Shown piece by piece: positions 125 through 64,000 of a stretch of 64,000 bases of DNA. Position 1 is the stretch's first letter, and each line of letters opens with the position of its first letter. The DNA comes from Candidatus Saccharimonas sp. (GTDB lineage: Bacteria; Patescibacteriota; Saccharimonadia; Saccharimonadales; Saccharimonadaceae), in assembly GCA_022736555.1 (NCBI GenBank), contig DZCW01000004.1:1-64000 (forward strand). Reading direction: 5' to 3'. The notes under the pieces were generated by a model that worked only from the letters and a program-made list of their open reading frames with translations, ran no database searches and was not told the origin of the DNA. The translations under genes were made by a program, and so were the position numbers.

Positions 125-304
125 TTGGTATAACCGACAGGATATCGGATAAATCCTCCTCCGTTTGCTCGTAAAAATATGTAAACACATTTTTCCTTCA
201 CCACACTACGCCGAACCTCTTTTGCTTTGCAAAAGGACAGTTCTAACCTTGACGGCGTTTAACCAATAAAAATAGACTAGTAAAACTAGTCTATTTTTAT
301 TGGT
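125..304 (-). repeat. tRNA-mirroring element E1, behind tRNA-Arg
   Basis: Non-coding element directly downstream of tRNA-Arg in the transcription direction. The outer end (125-143) is a direct copy of the tRNA-Arg 3' end at 300-318 with two mismatches. The core holds a hairpin whose loop region reads TGTAAACA (about 170-195) and a second hairpin, CTTTTGC/GCAAAAG. The inner end (about 235-262) is an inverted, imperfect copy of the tRNA-Arg T arm and acceptor. It runs into the terminator palindrome 262-304. The same layout recurs at 1167-1352 and 2690-2878. Function is unknown. Confidence 0.7.
262..304 (-). terminator. Terminator of tRNA-Arg, invading its CCA end
   Basis: Perfect 19-bp palindrome, 262-280 paired with 286-304 around a 5-nt loop. 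It is A+T-rich with a CTAG at the centre and runs of U in the transcript. The right arm includes the three template bases of the tRNA CCA, so terminator folding would compete with the mature 3' end. Similar long palindromic terminators follow the other tRNAs, hsp20 and rpmH. Confidence 0.8.
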
Positions 305-377
305 ACACCCGACAGGATTCGAACCTGTGGCCTTTAGCTCCGCAAGCGAACGCTCTATCCAGCTGAGCTACGGGTGC
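301..377 (-). tRNA. tRNA-Arg (anticodon GCG)
   Basis: A 77-nt cloverleaf with encoded CCA. The acceptor GCACCCG faces CGGGTGT, giving a G1-U72 wobble. The anticodon arm is TTCGC/TTGCGGA/GCTAA, so the anticodon is GCG, with a C29-U41 mismatch in the stem. The T arm is ACAGG/TTCGAAT/CCTGT. Most bacteria read CGC/CGU with an inosine-modified ACG tRNA, so GCG is unusual. The loop differs from a typical tRNA-Arg(CCG) loop at two positions, so descent from that isoacceptor is possible. Confidence 0.93.
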
Positions 378-382
378 AAAAC

Positions 383-414
383 GTAGGGTTACATACAAAA
401 AGCAATAACCCTAC
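383..414. other. Hairpin just 5' of tRNA-Arg
   Basis: A 9-bp perfect inverted repeat, 383-391 with 406-414, lies six bases before the tRNA-Arg 5' end. It would be in the precursor transcript if transcription starts upstream (a TACAAT box lies near 470-475 on the minus strand). It could be a processing signal or a weak terminator of the upstream gene. Confidence 0.4.
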
Positions 415-505
415 TTTTCATGTAACTAGAAGGTGCTTTCGGTCGCAAAAATCGCGACAGAATACCAGATATTGTAACACAAGAGGTCGTAGTGGTAAAT
501 AACGA

Positions 506-1114
506 CTAAAGCCGGAGCTTGCGTACGATAATATCGATCACATCTAGTTTGAGTTTTTCCATTGGTAATCTAGCCCCTAAAATATCAACTATCTTTTCAC
601 CAACTTCATCAGGAAAGTAGACCGATACGCCAGGTGAAAAGCGTTTAGTAGGGATTAACATAATAGAATGTTGATCATGATCGATAATTAGCCCAAACGC
701 CTTGAACTCACTAAAATGATACAGCCTCTCACCAATATATAACCCTTGGTCACCGCTCAAAGCGTAGTCAATCAGCTTGGGGGCACGGCGCGAATACATA
801 AGTAGCGAAACAACCATAACTACAACCAGAAAAGAAAAAGTGTATGATTTCAAAACCATCATGTCGGCGATGATGAATAATACAGCAATAGTGATCAGTG
901 AAACAAACCATGGCCAGTTTTTATCTTCGTGTATATATTCGCTAGCGGCCCAATGAATCGGTTCGTCATTAGACATGGGCGTAGTAAGGTTAGCATCCGC
1001 TACCTCTGGGATATCATCATTATTTGGCTCTGGGGTATACATTTCAGGTGTATTATCCGGCCCAATATTATTAGGATCGTTTTGCCAATAATTGTTTGGT
1101 TTATCTGGCTGCAT
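506..1114 (-). CDS. Hypothetical membrane protein, two TM segments
   Basis: A 202-aa protein starting at ATG 1114. An N-terminal acidic, Asn/Pro-rich stretch of about 65 residues precedes two adjacent hydrophobic helices (about residues 70-110), followed by a cytoplasmic-looking C-terminal domain of about 90 residues. I do not recognise the family. A TATACT box ends 6 nt before the ATG, so the mRNA is probably leaderless. The open frame continues upstream to 1282, but that part lies in the tRNA-associated repeat and resembles the equivalent frame at 2700-2842, so it is not coding. Confidence 0.75.
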   Translation of the reverse strand: MQPDKPNNYWQNDPNNIGPDNTPEMYTPEPNNDDIPEVADANLTTPMSNDEPIHWAASEYIHEDKNWPWFVSLITIAVLFIIADMMVLKSYTFSFLVVVMVVSLLMYSRRAPKLIDYALSGDQGLYIGERLYHFSEFKAFGLIIDHDQHSIMLIPTKRFSPGVSVYFPDEVGEKIVDILGARLPMEKLKLDVIDIIVRKLRL

Positions 1115-1120
1115 AATTCT

Positions 1121-1126
1121 AGTATA
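1121..1126 (-). promoter_or_regulatory. -10 box of the 506..1114 gene
   Basis: TATACT on the minus strand, separated by 6 nt from the ATG at 1114. The start codon would be at or next to +1 (leaderless). Confidence 0.55.
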
Positions 1127-1166
1127 GCATGAGGGAAATCCGTTAAATAAAAAACATAAACTACAA

Positions 1167-1352
1167 GGAGGAGGGGAGATAGCGCCAGCAAGCTGGCTTT
1201 TCCACTTGCTTACGAAAAAATGTAAACACTTTTTCGTTTCGCTGCGTTTCACCGAACTCCGCGCTCGTTTTGTCTGCGACAAAACCGCGGGAGTTCGAAC
1301 CTGCCCGATCCGTTAAAATAAAATTACGACCAAAAAGGTCGTAATTTTATTT
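1167..1352 (-). repeat. tRNA-mirroring element E2, behind tRNA-Ser(GCT)
   Basis: The outer end 1167-1180 (GGAGGAGGGGAGAT) is identical to the tRNA-Ser(GCT) 3' region at 1357-1370 in the same orientation. Next come a GCCAGC/GCTGGC hairpin and the conserved core hairpin ACGAAAAA...TTTTTCGT with loop region TGTAAACA (about 1212-1237). A GTTTTGTC/GACAAAAC hairpin and a mirrored T arm and acceptor copy at 1287-1314 complete it; the latter shares 13 identical bases with the tRNA T arm when inverted. It joins the terminator stem 1315-1353. Confidence 0.75.
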
Positions 1353-1353
1353 T
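1315..1353 (-). terminator. Terminator of tRNA-Ser(GCT)
   Basis: Perfect 17-bp palindrome, 1315-1331 with 1337-1353, loop of five A on the plus strand (five U in RNA). The stem carries GGTCG next to the loop and an A+T-rich lower part. It begins at the last base of the tRNA CCA, and the mirrored tRNA copy extends the inverted repeat to about 45 nt per arm. Confidence 0.8.
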
Positions 1354-1445
1354 GGCGGAGGAGGGGAGATTCGAACTCCCGCTCCAGGTCTCCCCAGACT
1401 AACGATTTAGCAAACCGTCCCCTTGAGCCACTTGGGTACCCCTCC
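1353..1445 (-). tRNA. tRNA-Ser (anticodon GCT)
   Basis: A 93-nt class II tRNA with encoded CCA. Acceptor GGAGGGG/CTCCTCC, anticodon loop TTGCTAA (GCT, reads AGC/AGU), long variable arm, T arm GGGAG/TTCGAAT/CTCCC. Confidence 0.95.
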
Positions 1446-1524
1446 GTATATCGTTAGCTACACTAATCCGCGTAACTAACATGTAAAGAACTCGTTTATT
1501 ATATCACAATCAAGAGAGGTGAGA

Positions 1525-2634
1525 CTATAACTTTGCGCCAGTTAATTCTCGCATTATTTGCCCAGCCGATGCTATACCGGCGGCTTCATCCTCTTTTAAT
1601 CTATTGCTATTACTGCCCGTAAATAGGATCCCATTCTCAACGTCGCCGCGATGGACGTTATCTAAGGCTCTAATAATACAATAACCAGCCAATTTATTCT
1701 CGCGATATCCGCAACCACGCAAACAGCCAACACAAGGACCTAGGTTAAATCTCTCTCCTAAATTGGTTCTACGCACAAAATCATTCTCGATCGCTCGCCC
1801 CGGCATTCCAACTGGACTTTTGATAATTACAATCGGGTCGGTATTGTGTAGATGTCGATCTTTGAATGCCTGCGAAGCCCCACATTCATTAGTCGTCAGA
1901 AAACGAGTTGCCATCTGAACACCCTTGGCGCCAATCTTTAGCATTTTTTCAACGTCGCCTCTGTCCCATATACCACCTGCGGCAATTACTGGGATATCGT
2001 AACCGCTATTTTCAAGAGTCTCGACTAATTTAGGGATAACACTCTCTAAACTAAATTCATCTTTACCGATGTCGTCTATATTAGTAACCCCTAAATGTCC
2101 GCCTGCCGCATTAGGAGTTTCGATCACAAAGGCCGCCGGGAGAATAGGGTTTGGGCGCTTTCCCCATTTTTTTATTATAATTTCCGCAGCCCTAACACTT
2201 GAGACAATAGGTATTAGCTCGGGCAAAGGTATTCCAGACACTCTATATTTTTCTACGTAATCCGGTAAACTTAACGGCAAGCCTGCGCCGGACACAATAA
2301 ATTTAGCCCCATTCTCGACAGCAACTCTTACCGAATTTTCGTAATCAGTGGCTGCGACCATTAAATTAACACCTATATTACCGTTATTACTAGCTTCTAG
2401 GGCGCTCTGGATTTCGTATTTCAAAACTGATTCATTAGCCTGGAAATAGTCGTCTCTATTTCTAATATCCAGAGACATACCTAAACCAACCCCACCAATA
2501 GTTCCATAGCCGCCGTTATTCGCAATTTCTGCGGCCAGTTCTGATTTAGTTAATCCAGACGACATACCGCCTAGAACAATAGGATTGTCCGATTCAAGAT
2601 TTCCAATTCTTAGTGACGGTAATTTTTCGCTCAT
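1525..2634 (-). CDS. Nitronate monooxygenase-like FMN oxidoreductase
   Basis: A 369-aa TIM-barrel protein of the nitronate monooxygenase / 2-nitropropane dioxygenase family. These enzymes use FMN to oxidise alkyl nitronates, and FabK-type enoyl reductases are related. Seen: an N-terminal NPIVLGGMSSG strand, VSGAGLPLSLP in the middle, a GGHLG motif around residue 180, and the phosphate-binding segment IPVIAAGGIWDRGDV followed by GAKGVQMATRFL. A C-terminal CxxCLRGCGY-like cysteine cluster (near residue 300) is less usual and might bind a metal or cluster. The true substrate is not evident from the neighbours. A TATAAT box 11 nt before the ATG suggests a leaderless mRNA. Confidence 0.85.
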   Translation of the reverse strand: MSEKLPSLRIGNLESDNPIVLGGMSSGLTKSELAAEIANNGGYGTIGGVGLGMSLDIRNRDDYFQANESVLKYEIQSALEASNNGNIGVNLMVAATDYENSVRVAVENGAKFIVSGAGLPLSLPDYVEKYRVSGIPLPELIPIVSSVRAAEIIIKKWGKRPNPILPAAFVIETPNAAGGHLGVTNIDDIGKDEFSLESVIPKLVETLENSGYDIPVIAAGGIWDRGDVEKMLKIGAKGVQMATRFLTTNECGASQAFKDRHLHNTDPIVIIKSPVGMPGRAIENDFVRRTNLGERFNLGPCVGCLRGCGYRENKLAGYCIIRALDNVHRGDVENGILFTGSNSNRLKEDEAAGIASAGQIMRELTGAKL

Positions 2635-2645
2635 TTGTATCTATA

Positions 2646-2651
2646 ATTATA
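2646..2651 (-). promoter_or_regulatory. -10 box of the nitronate monooxygenase-like gene
   Basis: TATAAT on the minus strand, 11 nt upstream of the ATG at 2634. No ribosome binding site is visible between them. Confidence 0.55.
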
Positions 2652-2689
2652 GTCGATAATAGGGGAGTTGGATATACTAATACCACTAT

Positions 2690-2878
2690 GGCGAGATAGC
2701 GTAACCCGCTAGTCAGCGGATTACTTTTCCGCTTGCTTACGAAAAAATGTAAACACTTTTTCGTTACGCTACGCTCCACCGAACACGCGGTTGCGTCAGT
2801 TTCACTGACGCCCGCGAGCTCGAATCTCGGCCGTCCGTTCAAATTAAAATAATGACCACAAGGGTCATTGTTTTAATT
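2690..2878 (-). repeat. tRNA-mirroring element E3, behind tRNA-Ser(TGA)
   Basis: The outer end GGCGAGAT at 2690-2697 copies the tRNA-Ser(TGA) T stem at 2889-2896. A CCGCT/AGCGG hairpin follows, then the core hairpin ACGAAAAA...TTTTTCGT with TGTAAACA (about 2739-2764), nearly identical to E2. A GCGTCAGT/ACTGACGC hairpin comes next. The inner mirrored tRNA copy is at 2813-2840. With the terminator it makes two 45-nt arms (2813-2857 and 2863-2907), about 36 of 45 positions complementary. Confidence 0.75.
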
Positions 2879-2879
2879 T
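2841..2879 (-). terminator. Terminator of tRNA-Ser(TGA)
   Basis: A 17-bp palindrome, 2841-2857 with 2863-2879, one mismatch, A+T-rich lower stem and GGTCA next to a 5-nt loop. It abuts the tRNA CCA, as behind the other tRNAs. Confidence 0.75.
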
Positions 2880-2968
2880 GGCGGAGAGGGCGAGATTCGA
2901 ACTCGCGGTACCATTGCTGACACGACAGTTTTCAAGACTGTTCCCTTAAACCACTCGGGCACCTCTCC
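2879..2968 (-). tRNA. tRNA-Ser (anticodon TGA)
   Basis: A 90-nt class II tRNA with encoded CCA. Acceptor GGAGAGG/CCTCTCC, anticodon arm ACAGT/CTTGAAA/ACTGT (TGA, reads UCA), long variable arm, T arm CGAG-TTCGAAT-CTCG. Confidence 0.95.
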
Positions 2969-52705: not shown

Positions 52706-52780
52706 TCCGGCGTAGCTCAATGGTGGAGCAAGAAGCTGTTAACTTCGAGGTTACTGGTTCGAACCCAGTCGCCGGAGCCA
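52706..52780 (+). tRNA. tRNA-Asn (anticodon GTT)
   Basis: A 75-nt tRNA with encoded CCA. Acceptor TCCGGCG/CGCCGGA, D arm GCTC/GAGC, anticodon loop CTGTTAA (GTT), T arm ACTGG/TTCGAAC/CCAGT. Unlike the tRNAs at 0-3 kb it has no mirrored element; a mobile island begins after it. Confidence 0.95.
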
Positions 52781-52801
52781 AGCTGAGCAGGCAAACACCC
52801 T

Positions 52802-52998
52802 GACCGGTTTCCATGACCGACAGGTAGATTTACCTCTTTAGCTAGAAAAAACCGAGCCGTACATCGTAAAGTGCGAAAAAGACTGGAACTGCTAGAAATA
52901 GCAGTTCTTTCTTTTTTACCTCTGTGAAAAAGTTCCAAACCTGACCGATATCCCATATAGCGACTGAGCGGTCAAAATCACGACCGGTTTCCATGACC
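52802..52998. repeat. 17-bp direct repeats behind tRNA-Asn
   Basis: GACCGGTTTCCATGACC occurs at 52802-52818 and 52982-52998, 180 bp apart, between tRNA-Asn and the first island gene. The unit is partly dyad (GGT...ACC). It could be a recombination site or remnant of island insertion. Confidence 0.65.
52886..52917 (+). terminator. Terminator downstream of tRNA-Asn
   Basis: Perfect 9-bp stem GAACTGCTA/TAGCAGTTC (52886-52894 with 52899-52907) around a GAAA tetraloop, followed by TTTCTTTTTT. Confidence 0.85.
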
Positions 52999-53008
52999 AG
53001 ATTGTTTA

Positions 53009-54529
53009 CTAACCCCTGAAACGATTATATTTTGATCTAACTAATTCATACAGTAAATGCATTGCATCTTCGTCTCTATGCGGTATATCTTGGCCCTTTA
53101 ATTCCTGTTCAATTTGACGAGCTAATAAATTCATATCTCTTCGTTTGTAGTTTGATGTTAATAATGGTTCATTATTGGTTTTTTGCAGTAATGGCATAAA
53201 GGCATAGATAAATATAGGTATTTTTGATGCAGTTTCTTTTGTGCTCACTTCGTCAGTAAAAGGAACGCTATTTTGAGTTTTAAGTTGATTTACTATGCTA
53301 TCATCTGTAGTAACTACAGAGGCGCTATTTTCCCAACTTATTAGACTGTTGAGCTCATTAACCCAACCTCTATCATTTCTATCTCTTATCCCTCGCCACC
53401 GCTCTCCAATAGATGTTAATAACTTTTGTCCACCTCTATTTTCAAAGATAGGGTATGGATAGTTTGAATTTGTTTGATTATTTTTATAAACACTGGACTG
53501 AAATAGAATAACCATACTACGTAAATAGCTCGACTTATCCTCGTTAAATACTATCTTAGAATCAGTAGCTTCGTTAGGTTGAATGTTATTAACTATATTC
53601 AGTGATTCATGAACTACTACTATATGAAGCAATAAATACCATATTAGATCTGATAATTTGATAGTCTCTATTTTATTGCCGACACCCCAATTTCTTACGA
53701 TATCGTTAGAGTCGAGTAGTTTGCTTAACGTATTACAAAATGTATTTTTTAGATCATTGATTTCATTATCGATGTATATTTCTGCATCTGTAAGTTTGCG
53801 TAAAAAAGTTGATGCGCTGGATTCGTCTAAGTTTAAGTCTTTTGCTATGGCTTTATTTATTATCTTCTTATATATGGGCAATAGTATGATTACATTTGGT
53901 AGAAGCCTAAGCTTTTCTACCATTCTAAGTACATCAACAATCTCATTCGGCCTTAATCTATCTAAATCATCTAATATGATAATTACGGTTGACTTATCTT
54001 TAAGTTTCTTGAATTTTGCAATTAAATTTTGTATATTAAGGGCGCCTCTATTACTGCTAAATTCTTTTGATATTGATACTGGTCCGAAATTTGCAGTTAT
54101 GCCAGTTCTCTCGCTATTAGGCGTAGATTCTAGTATAAATTGAGATATTTCATTATTGATATCGATTAAATTTTCATCTCTCATTCTTCTTGAGAGGTCG
54201 TTTAAAAAAGTCGATATTGACTCACTGACATTTCCAAAAGGCAGGAGGGATCTGTCGATAATAACAGGGTTAGTTATATTTACCTTAACCTCATTAATTA
54301 ATGCCCATGTAGCGGTACTTTTGCCAGCACCCCAAGCTCCATTTACGGTAATTACAAACCCGCGATTACAAATACCATCTTTTTGTGATCCTTTAATTAG
54401 ATTGTCTATTGTTGTCTTGAATCTATCTAATTCTTTCAACGTCTTCTCGTCGTCTATGTCCTTAAATGTTTTTTCTTTCAGCTGCTCTTGTGATTCGACA
54501 TCAAAAACATAAGTTGAAGAGTTTTCCAT
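53009..54529 (-). CDS. KAP-family P-loop NTPase
   Basis: A 506-aa protein. KAP signature: Walker A VNGAWGAGKSTATW (about residues 61-74) and Walker B with DDLDRLRP in VIIILDDLDRLRPNEIVDVLRMVEKL (about 175-200). No clear TM inserts. KAP NTPases often work at the membrane and several belong to phage-defence systems. The start ATG 54529 shares a base with the stop of the small membrane protein gene (TGATG), pointing to a two-protein unit. Confidence 0.87.
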   Translation of the reverse strand: MENSSTYVFDVESQEQLKEKTFKDIDDEKTLKELDRFKTTIDNLIKGSQKDGICNRGFVITVNGAWGAGKSTATWALINEVKVNITNPVIIDRSLLPFGNVSESISTFLNDLSRRMRDENLIDINNEISQFILESTPNSERTGITANFGPVSISKEFSSNRGALNIQNLIAKFKKLKDKSTVIIILDDLDRLRPNEIVDVLRMVEKLRLLPNVIILLPIYKKIINKAIAKDLNLDESSASTFLRKLTDAEIYIDNEINDLKNTFCNTLSKLLDSNDIVRNWGVGNKIETIKLSDLIWYLLLHIVVVHESLNIVNNIQPNEATDSKIVFNEDKSSYLRSMVILFQSSVYKNNQTNSNYPYPIFENRGGQKLLTSIGERWRGIRDRNDRGWVNELNSLISWENSASVVTTDDSIVNQLKTQNSVPFTDEVSTKETASKIPIFIYAFMPLLQKTNNEPLLTSNYKRRDMNLLARQIEQELKGQDIPHRDEDAMHLLYELVRSKYNRFRG

Positions 54530-54861
54530 CAAAAATTGAGCCCAATTAATATGAGAACAAATCCAATAATTGAAGCTATTGGGATAAACCTAAACTCTTT
54601 TATAATTAGATATTTTTGCTCTATAAATATCCAGATTAAACATAAGCCGTTTAGAGTTATGCCAGACAGGGCTATACCAAACCAATTATGTGGTGATATG
54701 GCTACAGAAATCCAGTCCCAGAAAGTTACAGTTTCGTTTATTTCTAAAAAACGCAGGCCGTCTTTATAGACGATTACAGCAATAAATACAAAAAGTAGCC
54801 AAAGAATAACCCAGGCGAATATTTTTCTTTCTTTAAGTATGTGGGATTTTATGTTATCCAT
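54529..54861 (-). CDS. Small membrane partner of the KAP NTPase
   Basis: A 110-aa protein with three predicted TM helices (about 14-33, 50-72 and 85-108) and no recognised family. Its stop overlaps the KAP start by one base. It would be the membrane module missing from this KAP protein. GGGAGA lies about 8 nt before the ATG, and a TATAGT box lies further upstream on the minus strand. Confidence 0.72.
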   Translation of the reverse strand: MDNIKSHILKERKIFAWVILWLLFVFIAVIVYKDGLRFLEINETVTFWDWISVAISPHNWFGIALSGITLNGLCLIWIFIEQKYLIIKEFRFIPIASIIGFVLILIGLNF

Positions 54862-54971
54862 AATATATTTCTCCCACCTTTTTAAATACTATAGCATATT
54901 ACCTATTGTTTTTTAAAGGGTATTAGACATAATTGAGCCTATTTATAAGCTACATAACACTAGTTTTATGT

Positions 54972-54977
54972 TATAAT
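54972..54977 (+). promoter_or_regulatory. -10 box of the small RNA candidate
   Basis: TATAAT, 6 nt before the first base (about 54984) of the closing helix of the structured region. No good -35 element is visible. Confidence 0.5.
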
Positions 54978-54983
54978 TACATA

Positions 54984-55113
54984 GTCTAGATTTAAACAAT
55001 TAAGTTATGTTGCCTTGCGGCTGCTTGCATTCAGAAATGGGCAGCCACAAATAATTCAGTAGAGTGCAAGCTTTATTGTTTAGGTCTAGACAGCCAGTGG
55101 CTGTCCTTTTTTT
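54984..55113 (+). ncRNA. Structured small RNA or leader with pseudoknot
   Basis: About 130 nt. The closing helix pairs 54984-55000 with 55075-55091 (17 bp including two G-U). Inside, hairpin GGCTGC 55019-55024 / GCAGCC 55041-55046 has a loop (55024-55032) that pairs with 55062-55070 (9 bp, one G-U), giving an H-type pseudoknot. An intrinsic terminator follows: GACAGCC 55089-55095 / GGCTGTC 55099-55105 then CT7. It shares 3 nt with the closing helix. It stands between the divergent KAP pair and the nuclease gene 26 bp downstream. It may be an independent RNA or a transcription-terminating leader of that gene; no known family recognised. Confidence 0.7.
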
Positions 55114-55139
55114 ATTCAGCCATTAGCAGAAAGAAGTTG

Positions 55140-56246
55140 ATGGCTATTATTATTTCAAAGAACAATCAAAACGCACGACGTATCGAAGAGGCTAAATTCA
55201 ACTTGGAAGATAATCTCCAAGAATACGTTATTAATAATCCTGAAATTATACCGATTTACGACATAGATTCTGATGCTCGTTTGTTTGTCGCCGCTCGTGA
55301 ATTTGCAACTAACAGTGGCCCGATTGATGCTATCGGATTTGATCAGAGTGGAAATATCTATGTTATTGAAACGAAACTATTTAAGAACGCTGATAAACGC
55401 ACTGTTGTCGCACAGGCGCTTGATTACGGCGCATCTATGTGGCGACACGCGACAAACTTTGACAGTTTTGTTGATCAACTTGATAAACATATGGGGAAGC
55501 AATTTAATACCTCGTTCAAAGATCAATACGAAAAATTCTTTAATATCGATAACTCAGCAATTAACCTATTAGCAATAAAAGATAACTTAGCCGAAGGTAA
55601 TATTAAATTTGTTATTTTGATGGATTCGCTAGACGAACGCCTAAAAGACCTTATTATTTATGTTAACCAAAATAGTAAATTTGATATCTATGCAGTTGAT
55701 TTTGAATATTATAAACATGATGAATTTGAAATAGTTATTCCAAAAATTTATGGAAGTGAAGTAAAGAAGACCATTCCAACAAAGACAACTTCGCGTAAGC
55801 AATGGAGTGAATCGGAATTCTTTAATGCCGTAGATAACGATCGAAGTCTAGTCAGTGAATTGCAGAAAGAAACTGTATATAAATTATGGAACTGGTCAAA
55901 ATCACAAAATGCTCAATTTAGCTGGGGAACTGCAAATATTTATGGAACATTCAGCCCGGTATTTCCTAATTTATTTAATCGTTCTTTTATGACCATCTCA
56001 ATTGATGGTTATATAAGAATAAATTACGGCCACCTAGACCAATATCCAGAATCGATGATTCTATTAAGAAATACACTGAAAAAGTATTTAGGAGACAGAT
56101 TGCCAAAAGTCACCGATATTTCAGACGAAGACTTAGTCCATAGTTTTCCAAGTATCACAGCTAAAGAAATGCCTGAACACGTCGATATCGTAATCTCGGC
56201 ATTAAATGAATTTATACAGGTATCGATGGGCAATTATGAAAACTAA
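55140..56246 (+). CDS. PD-(D/E)XK nuclease-like protein
   Basis: A 368-aa protein. The N-terminal domain (about 15-130) has the PD-(D/E)XK pattern as in NucS/DUF91-type proteins: LQEYVINNPEIIP, then REFATNSGPIDAIGFDQSGNIYVIETKLF (acidic residue, ID, ExK) and the following ADKRTVVAQALDYGA helix. The C-terminal half, from about 225, is a separate domain (WSESEFFNAVDND..., QFSWGTANIYGTFSP) that I do not recognise. ATG 55140 is preceded by GAAAGAAG. The next gene starts within its last codons. Confidence 0.8.
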   Translation: MAIIISKNNQNARRIEEAKFNLEDNLQEYVINNPEIIPIYDIDSDARLFVAAREFATNSGPIDAIGFDQSGNIYVIETKLFKNADKRTVVAQALDYGASMWRHATNFDSFVDQLDKHMGKQFNTSFKDQYEKFFNIDNSAINLLAIKDNLAEGNIKFVILMDSLDERLKDLIIYVNQNSKFDIYAVDFEYYKHDEFEIVIPKIYGSEVKKTIPTKTTSRKQWSESEFFNAVDNDRSLVSELQKETVYKLWNWSKSQNAQFSWGTANIYGTFSPVFPNLFNRSFMTISIDGYIRINYGHLDQYPESMILLRNTLKKYLGDRLPKVTDISDEDLVHSFPSITAKEMPEHVDIVISALNEFIQVSMGNYEN

Positions 56247-56889
56247 TATAAATAAAGTAGCTCTAAAAAGATTTTACGAAATACACAAAGATGAATATTT
56301 ACGTCGTAGATTGTCTGGTGATATAAAATTGTGGGATGAACAATACAAGTGGGATATATTGCCCGAACTAAATAAAAGATTGTCGATTTATGAAAAAATA
56401 ACTCGCGAGAATGTCGTAGACTTCATATCGATTATTAACAACAACTCCAATAAAAGTAATTTTGCTCACTGGATCGACATGGATGACCTTAAGATATTGG
56501 CGGAGCTACCATACGGAAATCAAATATTAGATATCGTGTGGCAGGCAAATTCTGAAGATGCGGAAGAGGCGATAGATACCGCTAATGACATTTCAAATTC
56601 ATTCAAACCGAATAAAAAGTTTAGTCCTTCAACGTGGGGGTATATCTTAGCCGCAAAAGACTGTAACAGATTTTCGATTTATCGTGAATCAATCCTAAAG
56701 CAGTTAATCGAAATAAACTTTGTTGATAGAAATGGTATAACTCAAGGCAAAAAATACCAACTGCTAAATGATTCTGCGTTATATCTTGGCTCTATTATGA
56801 ATGCAGAAAAGTTGGGCGGAATTAATAATGATCAAAATGCGCTCAACGGCCAAGATTTTCTTTGGATTACTTTATCTCAGTATAACTAA
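56236..56889 (+). CDS. Unknown protein paired with the nuclease-like gene
   Basis: A 217-aa soluble, mostly helical protein (MKTNINKVALKRFYEIHKDEYLRR...). No family recognised. The ATG at 56236 lies inside the end of the nuclease gene in another frame (11-nt overlap), which indicates coupled translation; a longer frame from 56206 is less likely. Its last four bases overlap the convergent recombinase gene. Confidence 0.68.
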   Translation: MKTNINKVALKRFYEIHKDEYLRRRLSGDIKLWDEQYKWDILPELNKRLSIYEKITRENVVDFISIINNNSNKSNFAHWIDMDDLKILAELPYGNQILDIVWQANSEDAEEAIDTANDISNSFKPNKKFSPSTWGYILAAKDCNRFSIYRESILKQLIEINFVDRNGITQGKKYQLLNDSALYLGSIMNAEKLGGINNDQNALNGQDFLWITLSQYN

Positions 56890-58154
56890 CCGAGTCGAAG
56901 TGCTCCGTTTTTGATTAGAACTTTATTTGTTATCCCGTTTGCAAAAGCTGTTTTTTCAACTTCATTTCCTTCGCGAAGTACGTATCTTGAATATTCAATA
57001 ATAGGTTTGTTTAATATTTGTTCAATCCCATATTGCTTAAATACGCTATTTGCAACTTTGTGGTGTCGTTCAATTTTACTTTGAAGCTTTGGGGTAACGT
57101 GTATTTTTCTTGGTTCTTTTTCGATTAATTCCAGCAGTAATTCGCAGAGAGTATCTTCATTCATATACCTTTCGCTACAGTTAGGATTAGTCTTTTTTGT
57201 GCAGTTGTAATATACGAATCTTTTATAACCACCAGTCTTTTTAATTATCTTAATCTTTTCCTGAGCTGTTATTTCAGCACCGCATCGACCACATTTTAGC
57301 AGCCCTCTGAACGCAAATTGTTTTGATCCCCATATGCCTTTGTTGACTCCTCGAGTTTGTTGAATTTCATCCCATAATTCTTTTGACACTAATGGTTTAT
57401 GGGCACCATCGTACCATGGATTACCTGCGCCTTCTGGGTATTGAAACCTTCCGTAATAAAAGGGGTTTATTAGCATAGCAAGGATGCTACTAACTGGAAC
57501 TGGCTTACCACTTCGTGTTGTAACTTTTTCTTTTTCGAGCCATGTTTTTAATTTTCGACCACTCCATCCTTGTGCTGCCTTGTGAAACATTTCGGTTATT
57601 ATCTCTGCTCTGTCGGGGTCTGGGATGATATCGGTTATACCTCCGAATGTTCTATTGATGTATCCAAGTGGGGCAGTGCCCGGTCGCCAACCCATTTCAC
57701 ACTTGGATCTAATTCCTCTTTTTACGTTAATACTTTTATTATCGTTTTCCAGTTTAGCTTGAGAACAGAGTATCATTAACAGGAATTTTTCATTCGGGCT
57801 GTTCGTAAAAGTTTGTGAATAGGTACGAATGTGCAGTAATCGATGTTGATCCATTAGATCTACGATTGAACCAAGGTCGCCTGCATTTCTGGATAATCGG
57901 TCGGGAGCCCATGTTAATATAGCGTTATATTTGCCAGACGCTAATTCGGATAACATTTCATTATATAAAGGTCGCTGGCCTGAATCTTTTGCGGAATGGC
58001 TTTCGTGTTTTTCGCATACGACATTCAATCCTTCAGAATCTGCCAATGATCGCATTTCTGATAATTGAGAGTCGATTGACATCGCTTGACGCTCGTCGCT
58101 TTCCGAGCTTTTTCTGGCATATAAACAATATGTAAGTTCTTTTATTTTTTCCAT
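56886..58154 (-). CDS. Large serine recombinase
   Basis: A 422-aa site-specific recombinase. The resolvase-type catalytic domain (1-150) has CLYARKSSESDERQAMSIDSQ (Ser16/Ser17 candidate nucleophile) and WAPDRLSRNAGDLGSIVDL. A recombinase domain follows (about 165-270, GTAPLGYIN...VSSILAMLINPFYYGRF). Then comes a zinc ribbon (about 298-330, LLKCGRCGAEIT...YYNCTKKTNPNC) and a short C-terminal helix, with only a brief coiled coil. ATG 58154 follows AGGTACCTTG-type sequence inside a 35-bp direct repeat. It probably mobilises the island. Confidence 0.9.
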   Translation of the reverse strand: MEKIKELTYCLYARKSSESDERQAMSIDSQLSEMRSLADSEGLNVVCEKHESHSAKDSGQRPLYNEMLSELASGKYNAILTWAPDRLSRNAGDLGSIVDLMDQHRLLHIRTYSQTFTNSPNEKFLLMILCSQAKLENDNKSINVKRGIRSKCEMGWRPGTAPLGYINRTFGGITDIIPDPDRAEIITEMFHKAAQGWSGRKLKTWLEKEKVTTRSGKPVPVSSILAMLINPFYYGRFQYPEGAGNPWYDGAHKPLVSKELWDEIQQTRGVNKGIWGSKQFAFRGLLKCGRCGAEITAQEKIKIIKKTGGYKRFVYYNCTKKTNPNCSERYMNEDTLCELLLELIEKEPRKIHVTPKLQSKIERHHKVANSVFKQYGIEQILNKPIIEYSRYVLREGNEVEKTAFANGITNKVLIKNGALRLG

Positions 58155-58162
58155 TGCAAGGT

Positions 58163-58197
58163 ACAAGGTACCGTATAACAGAGGTAAAGTCTAGCTA
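58163..58197. repeat. 35-bp direct repeat, left copy
   Basis: Starts ACAAGGTACCG and ends GTAAAGTCTAGCTA. It matches 59403-59437 with three mismatches. It lies 9 bp upstream of the recombinase start codon. Confidence 0.85.
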
Positions 58198-58204
58198 ATT
58201 GTGA

Positions 58205-58210
58205 TATAAT
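58205..58210 (+). promoter_or_regulatory. -10 box of the GIY-YIG gene
   Basis: TATAAT, 9 nt before ATG 58220. Confidence 0.5.
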
Positions 58211-58219
58211 GTCGTTAAT

Positions 58220-59047
58220 ATGCAAAACTCACCACGATTAATTCAAACCTATCTTCCATCCGGAACGCTCGAGGGGCCACGAATCATTGAACTAAGTGAT
58301 AGTTCTATAAAAGCCTTTGTTATTCCTCGTTTGCAGCTCACAAATATACGCAATCGTGCAGAGTTAACCCAACCAGCTTTGTATTTTTTGGTTAGCGGTG
58401 ATGAATCTTTGGGCTATATAGGTGAGAGCGAAAACTTTATTCATCGAATGCGAGATCACGATCAAAAGAAGGATTTTTAGGATGTAGTTATAGCGATTAT
58501 TTCGACTGCTAATAGCCTAGAAAAGGGTGATGTTAAGTATCTTGAATCACTAGCAGTCGAACGCGCGCAATCTGGCAGTATGAAGATCCAAAACAAAACA
58601 GCTCCAATTAAAAATAATGTTCATGAATTCAAACTTCATACCCTTAACAAAATTATTGATGATGCTCAGCTAATATTGACATCACTTGGTTATGATATAT
58701 TATCGCCATCTCAAAAAATGGAAGATCTTTGGTATTGTGTTTTCAAAAAGACAGCAGCCAAGGCGCAGTTTAGGGGTGATAAATTTGTACTACTTGAAGG
58801 GTCGGTTATTGATAAATCTAGCGCGCCAAATCTAAAAGTAAGTCAGCCACAAACTATCGCTGAAAGAGAAGATATTTTCAATAAATATGGAAAAGACCTT
58901 GGCGATACAGTTGAACTAACTGAAAGTGTTGCGTTTAAGAGCCCAAATCATGCAGGCAAGTTTGCGACTGGCGGTAGTGTTAATGCTTGGATTATATGGA
59001 AGAACAAAGACGGCCGGACTATGGATGAGGTTATGCGAAAATCTTAA
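58220..59047 (+). pseudogene. GIY-YIG nuclease family gene interrupted by one TAG
   Basis: The frame is open for 275 codons except for TAG at 58478-58480. Before it: ALYFLVSGDESLGYIGESENFIHRMRDHDQKKDF (GIY-YIG-type core). After it, in the same frame: DVVIAIISTANSLEKGDVKYLESLAVERA and a C-terminal domain (about 205-270) like DUF4357. Family members usually have Trp at the interrupted place (TGG to TAG). Either a recent nonsense mutation, or readthrough. The 58580-59047 part has its own ATG but only a partial domain. Confidence 0.82.
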
Positions 59048-59052
59048 TTGAT

Positions 59053-59379
59053 CTAGTTCTTTAGTCGATTAGTGATATATTTCAATACTTCGTTTTTTAT
59101 ATAAACATACGTCTCGGTATTTTTTCCACCAACATGCCATTCGCATATATTAATAAAATCTAATCCATCGTCGCCTAAATAGGATTTTCCATCTTTGTAG
59201 TTATAAATAGTTGCAATTCCGAATGGTGTTTTTATTATCCATTCAGCATCAATTTTGCAATCATCAATATTAGTTATTGGCCAACTGAATACCGATACTA
59301 AATCATTATAATTTGCCAGTAAATAGCCTTTGAAGCTCGTTCCTTCTCGGCTCTTTAGTATGTCTCTGTATTTCTTCAT
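59053..59379 (-). CDS. Small protein in the repeat-bounded cassette, unknown
   Basis: A 108-aa soluble protein (MKKYRDILKSREGTSFKG...). No family recognised. ATG 59379 is preceded by AAAGGA with about 7 nt spacing. It is convergent with the GIY-YIG gene and lies between the two 35-bp repeats. Confidence 0.6.
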   Translation of the reverse strand: MKKYRDILKSREGTSFKGYLLANYNDLVSVFSWPITNIDDCKIDAEWIIKTPFGIATIYNYKDGKSYLGDDGLDFINICEWHVGGKNTETYVYIKNEVLKYITNRLKN

Positions 59380-59402
59380 TTTATGTCCTTTCTTTTTATA
59401 CA

Positions 59403-59437
59403 ACAAGGTACCGCTTAACAGATGTAAAGTCTAGCTA
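59403..59437. repeat. 35-bp direct repeat, right copy
   Basis: Pair of 58163-58197. It includes the stop codon of the terminase-like gene (59431) and bounds a 1.24-kb cassette. Confidence 0.85.
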
Positions 59438-60033
59438 TCTTGGGCTTCTTGTTGACTTTTCTTTAGGCGATATTTTTGCATCTGTTCAGCTATTTTTTCC
59501 TTTGCATCGGGGAACACGCGATAGAATTCTTCGGCGTATACTCTTCCAAGAGACTCAATGTTGATTGGCTCATCTGGATCGTACATTTTGCCCGCAATTT
59601 TAGCTTCTTCTAATTCTCGTCGAATCGTTAATCTTTCGACAAGATTATCAATTATTTTTAATTCTTCACTATAGTACATACCGTCAACCCCGACTGGCAT
59701 ATACGTCGTGCGACCAACTCCACGCTTATCAAGATAATCAGCCTCGACTCGGTTCGAAGCATATTTTGGATTATTGTGGCGTAAATAAAACTCTATAGAT
59801 CTTGGAATTCCGTTGCGAGCGTTTTCTATTAGTCTTGATTCAATATAGTCATTCATTGTATCTTGGCCAATTTCTTGAGCGTCTCGCACGGCATCACGAA
59901 AAAAACTGTCGCTTTCCATCCAGCGGTACAATGTACTTCTGGCTATACCTGTCTTTTTGCAAGCACGTAAAAGGTTCGGATTCTCTTCAAGTAATTCGAG
60001 AACCTTTTTCTTGTTATTCTTGGATATCCTCAT
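59431..60033 (-). CDS. Terminase small subunit-like HTH protein
   Basis: A 200-aa protein. The N-terminal helix-turn-helix (LLEENPNLLRACKKTGIARSTLYRWMESDSFFRDAVRDAQE) followed by IESRLIENARNGIPRSIEFYLRHNNPKYA resembles phage terminase small subunits, which recognise packaging sites. No large terminase, portal or capsid gene is seen, so this may be a reused DNA-binding protein. It overlaps the ParB-methyltransferase gene by 20 nt. Confidence 0.7.
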   Translation of the reverse strand: MRISKNNKKKVLELLEENPNLLRACKKTGIARSTLYRWMESDSFFRDAVRDAQEIGQDTMNDYIESRLIENARNGIPRSIEFYLRHNNPKYASNRVEADYLDKRGVGRTTYMPVGVDGMYYSEELKIIDNLVERLTIRRELEEAKIAGKMYDPDEPINIESLGRVYAEEFYRVFPDAKEKIAEQMQKYRLKKSQQEAQDS

Positions 60034-61375
60034 TCGCGTTGCCTCGTGAGATTAACTTTCGTTTTAATCCAGTTTCGTTTTCCCATCGTTTCATAATGAC
60101 TTCGGCATAAGTTGGGACTTTTTCCATGATAAAACAGCGTCTTTTTAATTTTGTTGACGCAATCAATGTGCTGCCAGATCCGCCAAAAGGTTCGACAACC
60201 AGACTGTCGCGTCTCGTTAAAACCTTTATATATGGGATTAATATGTCGATTGGTTTAGTACCAAATATGATTCCTTGTCCGGAATGTTTTTCGTCGCTAG
60301 CATTAAAATCTATAAAGTCGGTTGGCATATATCTTTGGCCTTTTTCATAACCTTCCCATTGAGGCTTGCCAGATATCGCGAATAGGGCAGTTTCGTATAA
60401 TTCTTGTAAAGGCGACTCTTCTTCGTCTGTGTTATATTCGACGTCGCCCGATCCGCCGACCATAGCGATGTCATGTTTTGAAAAGAATTTGTATTTGGCC
60501 GAAAAACCTTGATGTCTATTTGGTAAATGCCAGACAATCATGTTTTTGATTTTCCAATGCTTTTCCATTTCACCCCAAATAACTCGTAGGTTTTTCCAGT
60601 TCTCATAACAAATAATAGAGAAGTCAGGGTTTGAGTTTTTTGCAATATTATTCATCCATAGTTCGGTGAAATTATCTGGTAAGCTGTCGGTTTCTAGGTA
60701 TACTCTATCTTGTCTTGCACCAAATCCCTTAACTGGTTTGCCACCGCGTTTTGCGTGTAGGTAGTCAAGAATATATGGTGGGTCTGTCATGCACATATCG
60801 GCTTTTTCACCGTTCATTAGTTTGTCAAAGTCAGCCTCAATCGTAGAATCGCCACACATCAGCTTTGATTCACCCAATAGATAAACATCGCCTTTTTGAA
60901 CGGCAATTGTTTTTATATCTAACTTTTTCAATTCTTTCTTTAGATCAAACGAATTCTTTTCGTCCATATCTTCGATGTCGAATATTTGATCAAGTTCTTC
61001 TGATTCGAACCCGATATCTGCGAGAAAATCTTCATCAAATTCTTTTAATAGTCCATAATCCCAATCACCACCTGATTTATTTAGACGTAAGTTTAATTCT
61101 TTTTCCTTTACTTCATCAAGTGATATATAGACAACTGGTACTTCGCTAAATCCCATATCTTTTAGGACTTTTAACCGCATATTGCCACCGATTACTATAT
61201 TTTGTCGTGGTCCGAAAGCATTCACGATAATCGGGTCGACGACTCCGAACTTTTCGATACTTTCACGTAGATGCGTTAATTGTTCCTCGCTCCATTTTCG
61301 AGGATTGTATTCACTTGATTTTAGTTCGTTTATGTTTAGCTGACGAACTTGCAACTTTCCGTTAATAGTGGCCAT
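60014..61375 (-). CDS. ParB-like nuclease domain fused to DNA methyltransferase
   Basis: A 453-aa fusion common in phages and mobile islands. The ParB/Srx domain (about 10-110) has LNINELKSSEYNPRKWSEEQLTHLRESIEKFGVVDPIIV and IVIGGNMRLKVLKDMG. The methyltransferase has DPPY in CMTDPPYIL (about 197) before the AdoMet motif VEPFGGSGSTLIA (about 393). This is the beta order of N6-adenine/N4-cytosine enzymes. AGAAAGGA lies ahead of ATG 61375 inside a hairpin loop. Confidence 0.9.
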   Translation of the reverse strand: MATINGKLQVRQLNINELKSSEYNPRKWSEEQLTHLRESIEKFGVVDPIIVNAFGPRQNIVIGGNMRLKVLKDMGFSEVPVVYISLDEVKEKELNLRLNKSGGDWDYGLLKEFDEDFLADIGFESEELDQIFDIEDMDEKNSFDLKKELKKLDIKTIAVQKGDVYLLGESKLMCGDSTIEADFDKLMNGEKADMCMTDPPYILDYLHAKRGGKPVKGFGARQDRVYLETDSLPDNFTELWMNNIAKNSNPDFSIICYENWKNLRVIWGEMEKHWKIKNMIVWHLPNRHQGFSAKYKFFSKHDIAMVGGSGDVEYNTDEEESPLQELYETALFAISGKPQWEGYEKGQRYMPTDFIDFNASDEKHSGQGIIFGTKPIDILIPYIKVLTRRDSLVVEPFGGSGSTLIASTKLKRRCFIMEKVPTYAEVIMKRWENETGLKRKLISRGNANEDIQE

Positions 61376-61376
61376 A

Positions 61377-61399
61377 GGGCACTATTCCTTTCTGTGCCC
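61377..61399 (-). promoter_or_regulatory. Hairpin around the methyltransferase ribosome binding site
   Basis: GGGCAC pairs with GTGCCC (6 bp) and presents AGAAAGGA in its loop, ending one base before the start codon. It may tune translation. Confidence 0.4.
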
Positions 61400-61715
61400 A
61401 TATAAAAAGCACGAATTAAGATTGATAAAAATGAACAACGAAAAATCCACACTGTGGTTAGTTAGGATTTTCGCCTCCTTTTTTACGCAATCTCAAGCCG
61501 TGCTTGTAGGTTTCGCGTTCATTAATTTTAGGTACACTTACTTTTTTGTAAGTAATTTAATTTTAGCATAGGCACATTGACGCGTCAACTATTTTGTTGC
61601 TTGGTATGTTTTTGTCAATATTGGTCAATGTTTGTATGAAATGAAACGTTTTAGTAGATTCTAGTCAATTCCGAACGTGAGTTATTTGGAAAATAAGAGT
61701 ATAATATTATGTAAT
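61400..61715. other. 316-bp divergent regulatory spacer
   Basis: No gene seen. It contains a hairpin ACTTAC/GTAAGT near 61537-61556, a perfect 12-bp palindrome TTGACGCGTCAA at 61577-61588 and a plus-strand TATAAT at 61700-61705, 10 nt before ATG 61716. The palindrome is a candidate operator between the methyltransferase and helicase genes. Confidence 0.5.
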
Positions 61716-64000
61716 ATGGCTGTTAAAAATACAAAAAACAATCTTACTTATTCTATTAGTCCTACTTTTTCATATGGAGTAATTTATATATATTCAATTC
61801 CCGATGAGCGACATAAAGGGCGATTAAAAATTGGGTCTGCAACGTTAACTACTGCAAACCCAACTGAAGACGATATCAATAGGGCTGCTCATGATAGGAT
61901 TCGCCAACAGACAAAAACTGCAGATATAGGTTATAGGCTAGAGCATGCTGAAATTGGATTAACTCATAAAAATCAATATTTATCAGATTATGATATTCAT
62001 AATATATTAAAAAGGTCTGGCTTTGACAGGAAATCGGAAAATACAAATAACTCTCATTCTGAATGGTTTGAAATTGATTTATTAACAGCCAAACGTGCTA
62101 TTAATGCGGCAAAAGAAGGACGATCTGCTCTTGATACAAATGAACGTATAATTGATTCTCCTAGGGCTTTTGATTTTCGCCCGAACCAACTTGATGCTAT
62201 TGTGCAAACAAACAAAGCTATAAAGCAGGGTCGAAAACACTTTCTTTGGAATGCAAAGATGCGTTTTGGAAAAACTTCAACCGCTATGCAAGTAGCAAAA
62301 GAGAATGGATTTAAGAAGGTTTTAATAATCACACACAGACCGAGTGTTAGTGCGGATTGGTACAATGATTTTAATATAGTTTTTCGTGGTACTGATTATC
62401 AATACTCTTCAAAATCAAAAGGCGAAAGTTTAACGAAGCGTTTAAATAGTGGAGAACCGTTTGTATATTTCGCTTCAATTCAAGACCTAAGATTGTCAGA
62501 AGCTGTTATATCAGATGAAGCTGTTAATTCACGAGCTAAGGGTTTCAAAAAGAATGAGGATATCTTCGGTACAGATTGGGACATGTTAATCGTAGATGAA
62601 GCTCATGAGGGAACCCAAAGCAACTTGGGTGATATTACAATATCTAAAATACCAGCAAAATTCACATTACAGCTCTCAGGAACTCCATTTAATATCATGT
62701 ATAAACTTGAAGAGAGTGATATATATACTTGGGATTATGTTATGGAGCAGCGCGACAAGCTAAATTGGGATATTGACCATCCCGGAGCGCCTAATCCATA
62801 TGCGGAACTGCCAGCACTCGAAATGCTTACTTATGACATCGATACATTCGCTGACCATATTGGCTCTATTGGTCATGATTTTCATGATGCGCTCGATGGC
62901 GGTTTCAAATTCCATGAATTCTTCCGTGTCTTAAAAGATGATGAAGGCAATGATGTTGCGCAATTCGTTCACGAAACAATGGTTAAGAAGTTTTTAGATT
63001 TACTATCAAACAATAATTTACCGACCAAATTCCCATATGCAACGGATGACTATAGGGGTTACGTAAAACACTCTTTATGGCTTTTGCCTAACAGGACAAA
63101 AACTATTGAAGCAATGGAGAAACTTCTTAAGGATCATCCAATTTTTGGGAAATTCGGTATTGTTAATATTTCTGGAATAGCCAAAGAGGATGATGATAGC
63201 GATACAGACGCGAAGCACCGCGTCGTAAAAGCTATTGAGAATAATGACTACACTATTACACTAACCGGCCAACGCTTAACAACTGGTGCTTCAATTCCTG
63301 ACTGGACTGCTGTATTTATGATGTCCGATACTAATTCTGCTACGACGTATCTTCAGACGGCCTTTCGTTGCCAAACACCGGCTAGAATAGATGGCAGGTT
63401 GAAGACAAAGGGTTACGTATTTGATTTTGCACCCGATAGAACATTAAAATTGGTTGCGGAAGCAATAGAGCTTAATCATAGATCAGGAAAGACAAATACC
63501 CCTGAGCAAAAACTTGCTATGACGGAATTCCTTAATTTTTGTCCGATTATAGCAGCTGATGGTGGCTCAATGAAGCTTTACGATGTTAATAAAATGCTCG
63601 AACAGCTCAAGAAGGCTATTATTGACCGTGTTAGCCGCAACGGATTTGACGATCCTAGGTTGTATAACGATGACTTACTTCAACTTGATGAACTTGAGAT
63701 TAATAAATTCAACGAACTAAAAGCGATTGTCGGGTCTGTTAATAATGAGAGAGTTAATGAAATCCAAGTTAATGATTTAGGCATGACTGACTTACAGACT
63801 AAAAAAGCTGAAGAGGCTGAGCGTAAGAAAAAACAGAAGAAGCAACTAACCGAAGAAGAAAAAGAACTTATAAAAAAAGCCAAAGAAGCTCGTGAACAGA
63901 AGAAGACTGCTATCAGTATTCTTAGGGGAGTTAGTATCCGTATGCCTATGCTTGTATATGGCGCTAATGTTTCTCTGCATGAAGACATTACATTAGAAAA
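61716..64000 (+). CDS. GIY-YIG-like/DEAH helicase restriction-type protein (3' end outside)
   Basis: Open frame of at least 761 codons to the window edge. The N-terminal 120 residues (YGVIYIYSIPDERHKGRLKIGSA) resemble T5orf172/GIY-YIG nucleases. An SF2 helicase follows: Q-like FRPNQLDAI, Walker A MRFGKTST (about 181-188), VDEAHEGT (about 292), SGTPFN, and motif VI-like LQTAFRCQTPAR with TTGASIPDW before it. A Lys/Glu-rich coiled segment occurs near 700-735. This looks like a type III- or Res-like nuclease-helicase. With the divergent methyltransferase it may form a restriction-modification pair. Confidence 0.85.
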   Translation, partial: MAVKNTKNNLTYSISPTFSYGVIYIYSIPDERHKGRLKIGSATLTTANPTEDDINRAAHDRIRQQTKTADIGYRLEHAEIGLTHKNQYLSDYDIHNILKRSGFDRKSENTNNSHSEWFEIDLLTAKRAINAAKEGRSALDTNERIIDSPRAFDFRPNQLDAIVQTNKAIKQGRKHFLWNAKMRFGKTSTAMQVAKENGFKKVLIITHRPSVSADWYNDFNIVFRGTDYQYSSKSKGESLTKRLNSGEPFVYFASIQDLRLSEAVISDEAVNSRAKGFKKNEDIFGTDWDMLIVDEAHEGTQSNLGDITISKIPAKFTLQLSGTPFNIMYKLEESDIYTWDYVMEQRDKLNWDIDHPGAPNPYAELPALEMLTYDIDTFADHIGSIGHDFHDALDGGFKFHEFFRVLKDDEGNDVAQFVHETMVKKFLDLLSNNNLPTKFPYATDDYRGYVKHSLWLLPNRTKTIEAMEKLLKDHPIFGKFGIVNISGIAKEDDDSDTDAKHRVVKAIENNDYTITLTGQRLTTGASIPDWTAVFMMSDTNSATTYLQTAFRCQTPARIDGRLKTKGYVFDFAPDRTLKLVAEAIELNHRSGKTNTPEQKLAMTEFLNFCPIIAADGGSMKLYDVNKMLEQLKKAIIDRVSRNGFDDPRLYNDDLLQLDELEINKFNELKAIVGSVNNERVNEIQVNDLGMTDLQTKKAEEAERKKKQKKQLTEEEKELIKKAKEAREQKKTAISILRGVSIRMPMLVYGANVSLHEDITLE

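Follow-up and report, generated by a model that had tools for sequence, protein, structure and literature searches.

Organization of the units in the window

The window, i.e. the whole analysed stretch of 64,000 nucleotides of Candidatus Saccharimonas sp. (contig DZCW01000004.1), carries near its beginning three tRNA genes that are each followed by a unit of about 0.2 kb without open reading frames (Table 1). The genes lie on the minus strand, which corrects the plus-strand description of the sequence-only reading. In what follows, A denotes the 5' half of the T-arm and B the 3' half of the T-arm plus acceptor and CCA, both written on the tRNA strand. On this strand the order in all three units is the tRNA ending in A-B-CCA, a terminator palindrome, an inverted T-arm, a loop, A, a core and B. 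A unit can accordingly be written as B-CCA-terminator-(partial B')-A'-loop-A-core. The terminators are bidirectional. Palindromes flush with the CCA (CCA...TGG) constitute many tRNA terminators of this genome, also behind some tRNAs that have no recognizable unit (L099-L128).

Table 1. Positions of the tRNA genes and unit parts in the window.
Feature	Position	Strand	Basis
tRNA-Arg(GCG), restored target gene of unit 1	301-377	-	ARAGORN, Rfam
Unit 1, terminator palindrome starting at CCA	262-304	-	arms 20/20 complementary
Unit 1, inner hairpin A'-loop-A (T-stem 5' half and inverted partner)	211-248	-	sequence, arm statistics
Unit 1, type-1 core	156-222	-	covariance model match, 83.9 bits
Unit 1, displaced tRNA-Arg 3' end, B copy through CCA	126-143	-	15/17 match
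tRNA-Ser(GCT), restored target gene of unit 2	1353-1445	-	ARAGORN
Unit 2, terminator palindrome starting at CCA	1309-1359	-	arms 91% complementary
Unit 2, inverted T-arm copy (1287-1306) and inner hairpin A'-loop-A	1251-1306	-	repeat search, fold
Unit 2, type-1 core, hairpin 1214-1235	1197-1263	-	covariance model match, 90.2 bits; pattern
Unit 2, displaced tRNA-Ser 3' end, B copy	1167-1180	-	14/14, exact
tRNA-Ser(TGA), restored target gene of unit 3	2879-2968	-	ARAGORN
Unit 3, palindrome of inverted T-arm copy, terminator and tRNA 3' end	2812-2908	-	46-nt arms, 80% complementary
Unit 3, type-1 core, hairpin 2741-2762	2724-2790	-	covariance model match, 85.2 bits; pattern
Unit 3, displaced tRNA-Ser 3' end, short decayed B copy	2686-2697	-	sequence

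The terminator palindromes and shared cores that had been described from the sequence were seen in all three units, and the covariance model recovered each of the cores. An inverted copy of the T-arm and acceptor had also been reported. The fit of the arms to their own tRNA and to other isotypes was compared over 83 units. For the inverted copy, A (z 18) and the 3' part of the T-stem (z 9) fitted the own tRNA, whereas the acceptor did not (z 1.4). The T-arm part of that claim, mainly its 5' half, is therefore retained and the acceptor part is not. In the main, then, the inverted copy serves to pair with A in the inner hairpin. For the direct copy all three parts fitted the own tRNA (A, z 20; T-stem 3' part, z 20; acceptor, z 12). 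Thus, as had been noticed from the sequence, the flanking copies follow the identity of their tRNA far better than that of other isotypes. The direct copy of the tRNA end had been noticed as well, and it is present in the three units (at 2690-2697 in unit 3), but it is split. The core separates its A half from its B half and so sits where the T-loop of another T-arm copy would be. In other words, the 3' end of the tRNA is present once more as a displaced copy, A-core-B, in which the core has taken the place of the T-loop.

When the displaced B was compared through the CCA with the tRNA to which it belongs, 10 units matched at 17/17 positions and 21 of the 83 at 15/17 or more; the remainder showed a graded decay. 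The control against other isotypes gave 0.4%. In fresh units the displaced CCA is followed by a second, different terminator. That the displaced copy still matches through the CCA in these 21 units implies that a unit of about 0.2 kb was inserted in the T-loop and that the tRNA was restored.

A tRNA-Asn gene in the window (52706-52780) has no unit. The region behind it (52781-64000) contains a serine recombinase gene (56886-58166, minus strand; PF00239, PF07508) and genes resembling ParB/methylase and a small terminase, which suggests a prophage or an integrative element. In the genus, genes for large serine recombinases (LSRs) are convergent with tRNA genes at at least 11 loci, and these loci are serine-integrase elements using tRNA genes. 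RAYT-like Y1 genes (about 210 aa; L220-L239) are flanked by GGACGGACC-type or similar palindromes, and several of them lie directly behind tRNA-Glu.

Core structure and core families

In helix 2 of the type-1 core 97.3% of the cells were paired, and 10 of the 11 pairs showed double changes. The compensating changes first seen between the stems of the window are thus borne out. The covariation score was 0.343, vs 0.154 after shuffling and at most 0.116 after sliding. The G-U pairs of the hairpin assign the structure to the tRNA-sense strand, i.e. the minus strand in the window, where they preserve the stem. A large tRNA-like fold of the plus strand, which had been proposed, is contradicted by these pairs and by the missing inverted copy of the acceptor. 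Rfam contains no family that matches the cores. A dif-like reading of ATGTAAACA is disfavoured, because the hairpin sequence varies between cores.

A second type of core (GTGAGAACTGCC..GGCAGTTCGCAAGG...GGTCGCG..CGTGACC) is unrelated in sequence to type 1 and occupies the same loops. It gave 49 exact matches in 18 of the 28 genomes of the genus (reversed-pattern control, 0). Its helices are mostly invariant, with a few compensated pairs, and the covariation is weaker than in type 1. A third type is represented by a single short hairpin in the T-loop of Gly(GCC), and a fourth, which shares the TGTTTACAT hairpin, occurs in the T-loop of Trp in G009 and G015. Matches to the hairpin only, in G009, G015 and G023, proved to be further insertions in tRNA arms.

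Distribution of the cores and link to tRNA genes

A covariance model built from five cores detected the type-1 core in 26 of the 28 genomes of the genus, with up to 12 copies each. The core was present in 52 of 151 genomes of the family and in 48 of 295 genomes of the class, all of the latter within families of one order (Saccharimonadales); likewise, a phylum sample of 380 genomes contained it only in Saccharimonadales. Named records with the exact core sequence were mostly labelled Saccharibacteria. In the genome of the window, two further type-1 copies lie behind tRNA-Gln and tRNA-Tyr and type-2 units lie behind Pro and Val tRNAs. Carriage by viruses or plasmids was rejected, because the search patterns used detected neither type-1 nor type-2 elements in IMG/VR (the hairpin alone was matched twice, once apparently in a promoter), no type-1 element in PLSDB and no type-2 element in INPHARED. 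Among open-licence PMC papers no description of such elements was found.

The link to tRNA genes, for which a scan with a covariance model had been suggested, is confirmed: 83 of the 103 examined matches start 45-110 nt behind a tRNA of the same strand and of almost any isotype, where about 0.2 would be expected by chance according to our estimate. Several of the remaining matches have a displaced or decayed tRNA body, lie at contig ends, adjoin masked sequence or are part of arrays, and the core is not scattered free of tRNAs. The 20 additional loci that were checked, 17 type-1 and three type-2 loci mostly from other genera or families, all lay behind tRNAs. Alongside tRNAs with a unit, many tRNAs of the same genome have none.

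The most similar cores were mostly found at other isotypes in other genomes; the same isotype was shared in 12.5 of 83 cases, vs 4.7 by shuffling. Core similarity was nearly equal within (0.724) and between (0.702) isotypes, and tRNAs that differ were followed by near-identical cores, each time with arms matching the local tRNA. From these sequence relationships, cores seem to move between isotypes while the arms follow the local tRNA.

Evidence for mobility

At the same isotype, terminators and flanks mostly differ between genomes, and vertical inheritance at each tRNA was therefore rejected. At Ser(GGA) of G011 a new unit is followed by a B-CCA-terminator identical to the tRNA-proximal terminator of G014. 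Behind tRNA-Asn of G023 a second unit is found exactly at the position of the junctions between core, B and flank in G022. Arrays in which each core is followed by B occur at five loci, and reversed cores at four. In six mirror cases the core lies in the D-loop of a duplicated tRNA 5' end, with the inner hairpin on the opposite side; an intact tRNA follows 130-210 nt downstream, and it is the promoter side and the 5' half that are duplicated. Cores were also found behind dead tRNAs. Behind tRNA-Asn, genes are present between cores: DUF2177, DUF1295, DUF1697 and pilin-like genes in G008, and a TdeIII-type restriction endonuclease and adenine methyltransferase in G023. None of those tested was a recombinase.

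Insertion polymorphism between relatives, arrays, reversed cores, D-loop mirrors and an unrelated second core family at the same sites speak for mobility of the units and against a role as tRNA mimic or in processing. Together with the fixed position in the T-loop and the displaced ends with terminators of their own, this upholds the tRNA-targeting mini-element, one of the options that the sequence-only reading had offered. That reading is partly confirmed, as its observation is real in its main parts, and its interpretation is partly supported in that the mini-element option holds with a corrected anatomy.

Proposed mechanism and alternative explanations

We consider it likely that the units are gene-less integrative mini-elements of tRNA genes, inserted in the T- or D-loop by recombination in trans. 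As the comparison of sequences shows, the unit lies between the 5' (A) and the 3' strand (B) of the T-stem and gives the tRNA a new 3' end and terminator, the old 3' end being left behind the core, together with the old terminator when fresh. A unit entering the T- or D-loop would rebuild the tRNA half that it replaces and displace the old one. Insertion would be site-specific, with recombination where the outer half that is shared begins (for T-loop insertions, at the start of B). The site that recombines is probably single-stranded, of tRNA sense, and folded in such a way that the core is extruded as hairpins and A is paired with A'. This pairing would make the folded site resemble a bare tRNA arm, somewhat like an integron attC site. 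A complete attC-like duplex would not be formed, as the inverted partner of the outer half is partial at best (acceptor z 1.4) and was not seen at all in the D-loop cases. After insertion older units would be displaced and decay, which would yield arrays.

The recombinase would act in trans, and the host Xer protein is a candidate; no recombinase gene was found inside the units. Tyrosine recombinases were present in all 12 genomes tested (one each in 10 and two each in two), and the one read in the genome of the window looks like Xer. The Xer-type enzyme was the only tested candidate for a mover that occurs in every genome examined for it, a finding that concerns its presence alone. The numbers of serine recombinase, Y1 transposase and reverse transcriptase genes did not correlate with the copy number of the core. 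Against the mini-element explanation stand this lack of correlation, the partial partner of the outer half and the absence of a recombinase from the units, as well as the fact that neither circles or other excised forms nor an active enzyme were seen. Moreover, one core lineage is found at about 20 isotypes, though a unit may have to carry a B fitted to its tRNA. A broader scheme, which we regard as rather doubtful, is a tRNA-anchored integron-like system with D- and T-arms as receiving sites and folded cores of several unrelated families as attC-like sites; its units might rebuild tRNAs with matching halves and sometimes carry gene cassettes, e.g. the TdeIII-type restriction-modification pair.

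Other origins of the units have to be weighed. They could be non-autonomous relatives of the LSR elements that integrate at tRNA 3' ends, with the LSR moving them in trans. In the genus, at least 11 LSR genes do end on a tRNA 3' end, and the TTCGAA of the T-arm is palindromic, as is typical for LSR sites. However, the far ends of the LSR elements have no core and keep only the last 7-9 nt or so of the tRNA, which implies that the LSR crossover is in the acceptor and not in the T-loop. LSR elements moreover displace existing units (three loci), and whereas four genomes without an LSR have at least four cores, three with an LSR have at most one. This derivation is very improbable in our opinion. 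The same holds for a REP/RAYT-like system in which the cores would be hairpin repeats moved by Y1 transposases (PF01797). GTAG- and GGAG-like motifs are indeed located beside hairpins within the core, but they are variable, and REPs have no tRNA-matched arms. Y1 genes were detected in 17 of 28 genomes and all four genomes with at most one core are devoid of them, but so are seven genomes with at least four cores, that of the window included, and the Y1 genes carry their own GGACGGACC-type palindromes instead of the core. A tRNA-primed retroelement, suggested by the likeness of B to an 18-nt primer-binding site, was rejected as reverse transcriptase genes are missing from most of the core-rich genomes.

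It can also be argued that the unit is a functional RNA, i.e. a structured transcript behind the tRNA that regulates or processes it, with selection for the complementarity of the arms. The strong covariation, the G-U pairs on the tRNA-sense strand, the bidirectional terminators and the arms that follow the tRNA would fit such a role, and a transcribed mimic or 3'-processing device had been among the initial suggestions. Yet the inverted arm is without acceptor, no Rfam family fits the core, presence at the same tRNA varies between relatives and the displaced ends decay. Cores that are reversed, situated in D-loops, arranged in arrays or left behind dead tRNAs are equally hard to reconcile with it, as are unrelated cores at the same place and the many tRNAs of the same genome without a unit. 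We consider a functional RNA unlikely. Finally, template switching during replication at tRNA palindromes might have made the direct, inverted and direct copies, with the hairpin repeat inserted later. This would account for the order of the copies and for the terminator palindromes flush with the CCA. It is disfavoured and seems highly improbable, because the inverted copy has no acceptor even in fresh units, terminators differ between the new and the displaced copy, and the same structured core is always at one position of the loop.

Comparison with known mobile elements

Integration of mini-elements at tRNA genes, the reading that we prefer, has features in common with several known systems. 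Islands and phages integrated in tRNA genes use a tyrosine integrase with a crossover in a tRNA loop, and the 3' end is restored (Islander, PMC4383910). The units resemble them in the target, in the restored half and in the displaced fragment that marks the far end. Unlike islands, they have neither an integrase nor any other gene in their 0.2 kb or so, they carry the same core at about 20 isotypes, with arms on both sides of it and an inner hairpin, and they also enter D-loops, where the promoter side and the 5' half are restored. Tycheposons are tRNA-integrated elements of marine cyanobacteria that are kilobases long and encode a tyrosine recombinase. An intact tRNA at one end, a partial tRNA repeat at the other and cargo in arrays are common to both, whereas our units are gene-less and of about 0.2 kb; we know of no conserved folded core in tycheposons.

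With integron cassettes the units share the suspected folded single-strand site, which as in attC has covarying stems (type 1; more weakly type 2), the arrays beside a fixed anchor and the occasional gene cargo (G008 and G023). They differ in being anchored at a tRNA arm and in that the half which is joined consists of 17-22 nt from the tRNA. No attC R or L boxes (GTTRRRY) were found in the aligned units, of which the left boundary is GTTCGGC or GGTCGCG, and no IntI was recognized in a search for tyrosine recombinases in general (12 genomes). Like REPINs/RAYT and other MITEs the units are short, multicopy, gene-less and hairpin-structured; in contrast to these, they enter one exact place in a tRNA loop, and restore the tRNA, and no matching transposase ends were found. 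The core hairpin was not seen flanking a RAYT gene, and the crossover and ends of LSR elements are not those of the units. In the comparison with Xer-exploiting elements (IMEX), for which a dif-like site recombined by the host Xer would be expected, the sequence of the core hairpin was not conserved across variants and no chromosomal dif was located. The units thus share features with islands, tycheposons, integron cassettes and REPINs. For all of these but the tycheposons, one or more of the defining features that were tested are lacking.

Significance

tRNA genes are classic landing sites of mobile DNA, and the elements that use them bring their own integrase. In the minimal genomes considered here, gene-less elements of about 0.2 kb occur at a large number of tRNA genes; the arms fit the tRNA concerned, and the cores are common to the isotypes. 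If confirmed, they would be among the smallest integrative elements known and would provide a natural record of insertions per tRNA. They may also be of use as ready-made docking sites for the genetics of Saccharibacteria. Their confirmation would furthermore point to a new recombination activity in trans in an episymbiotic lineage with very small genomes.
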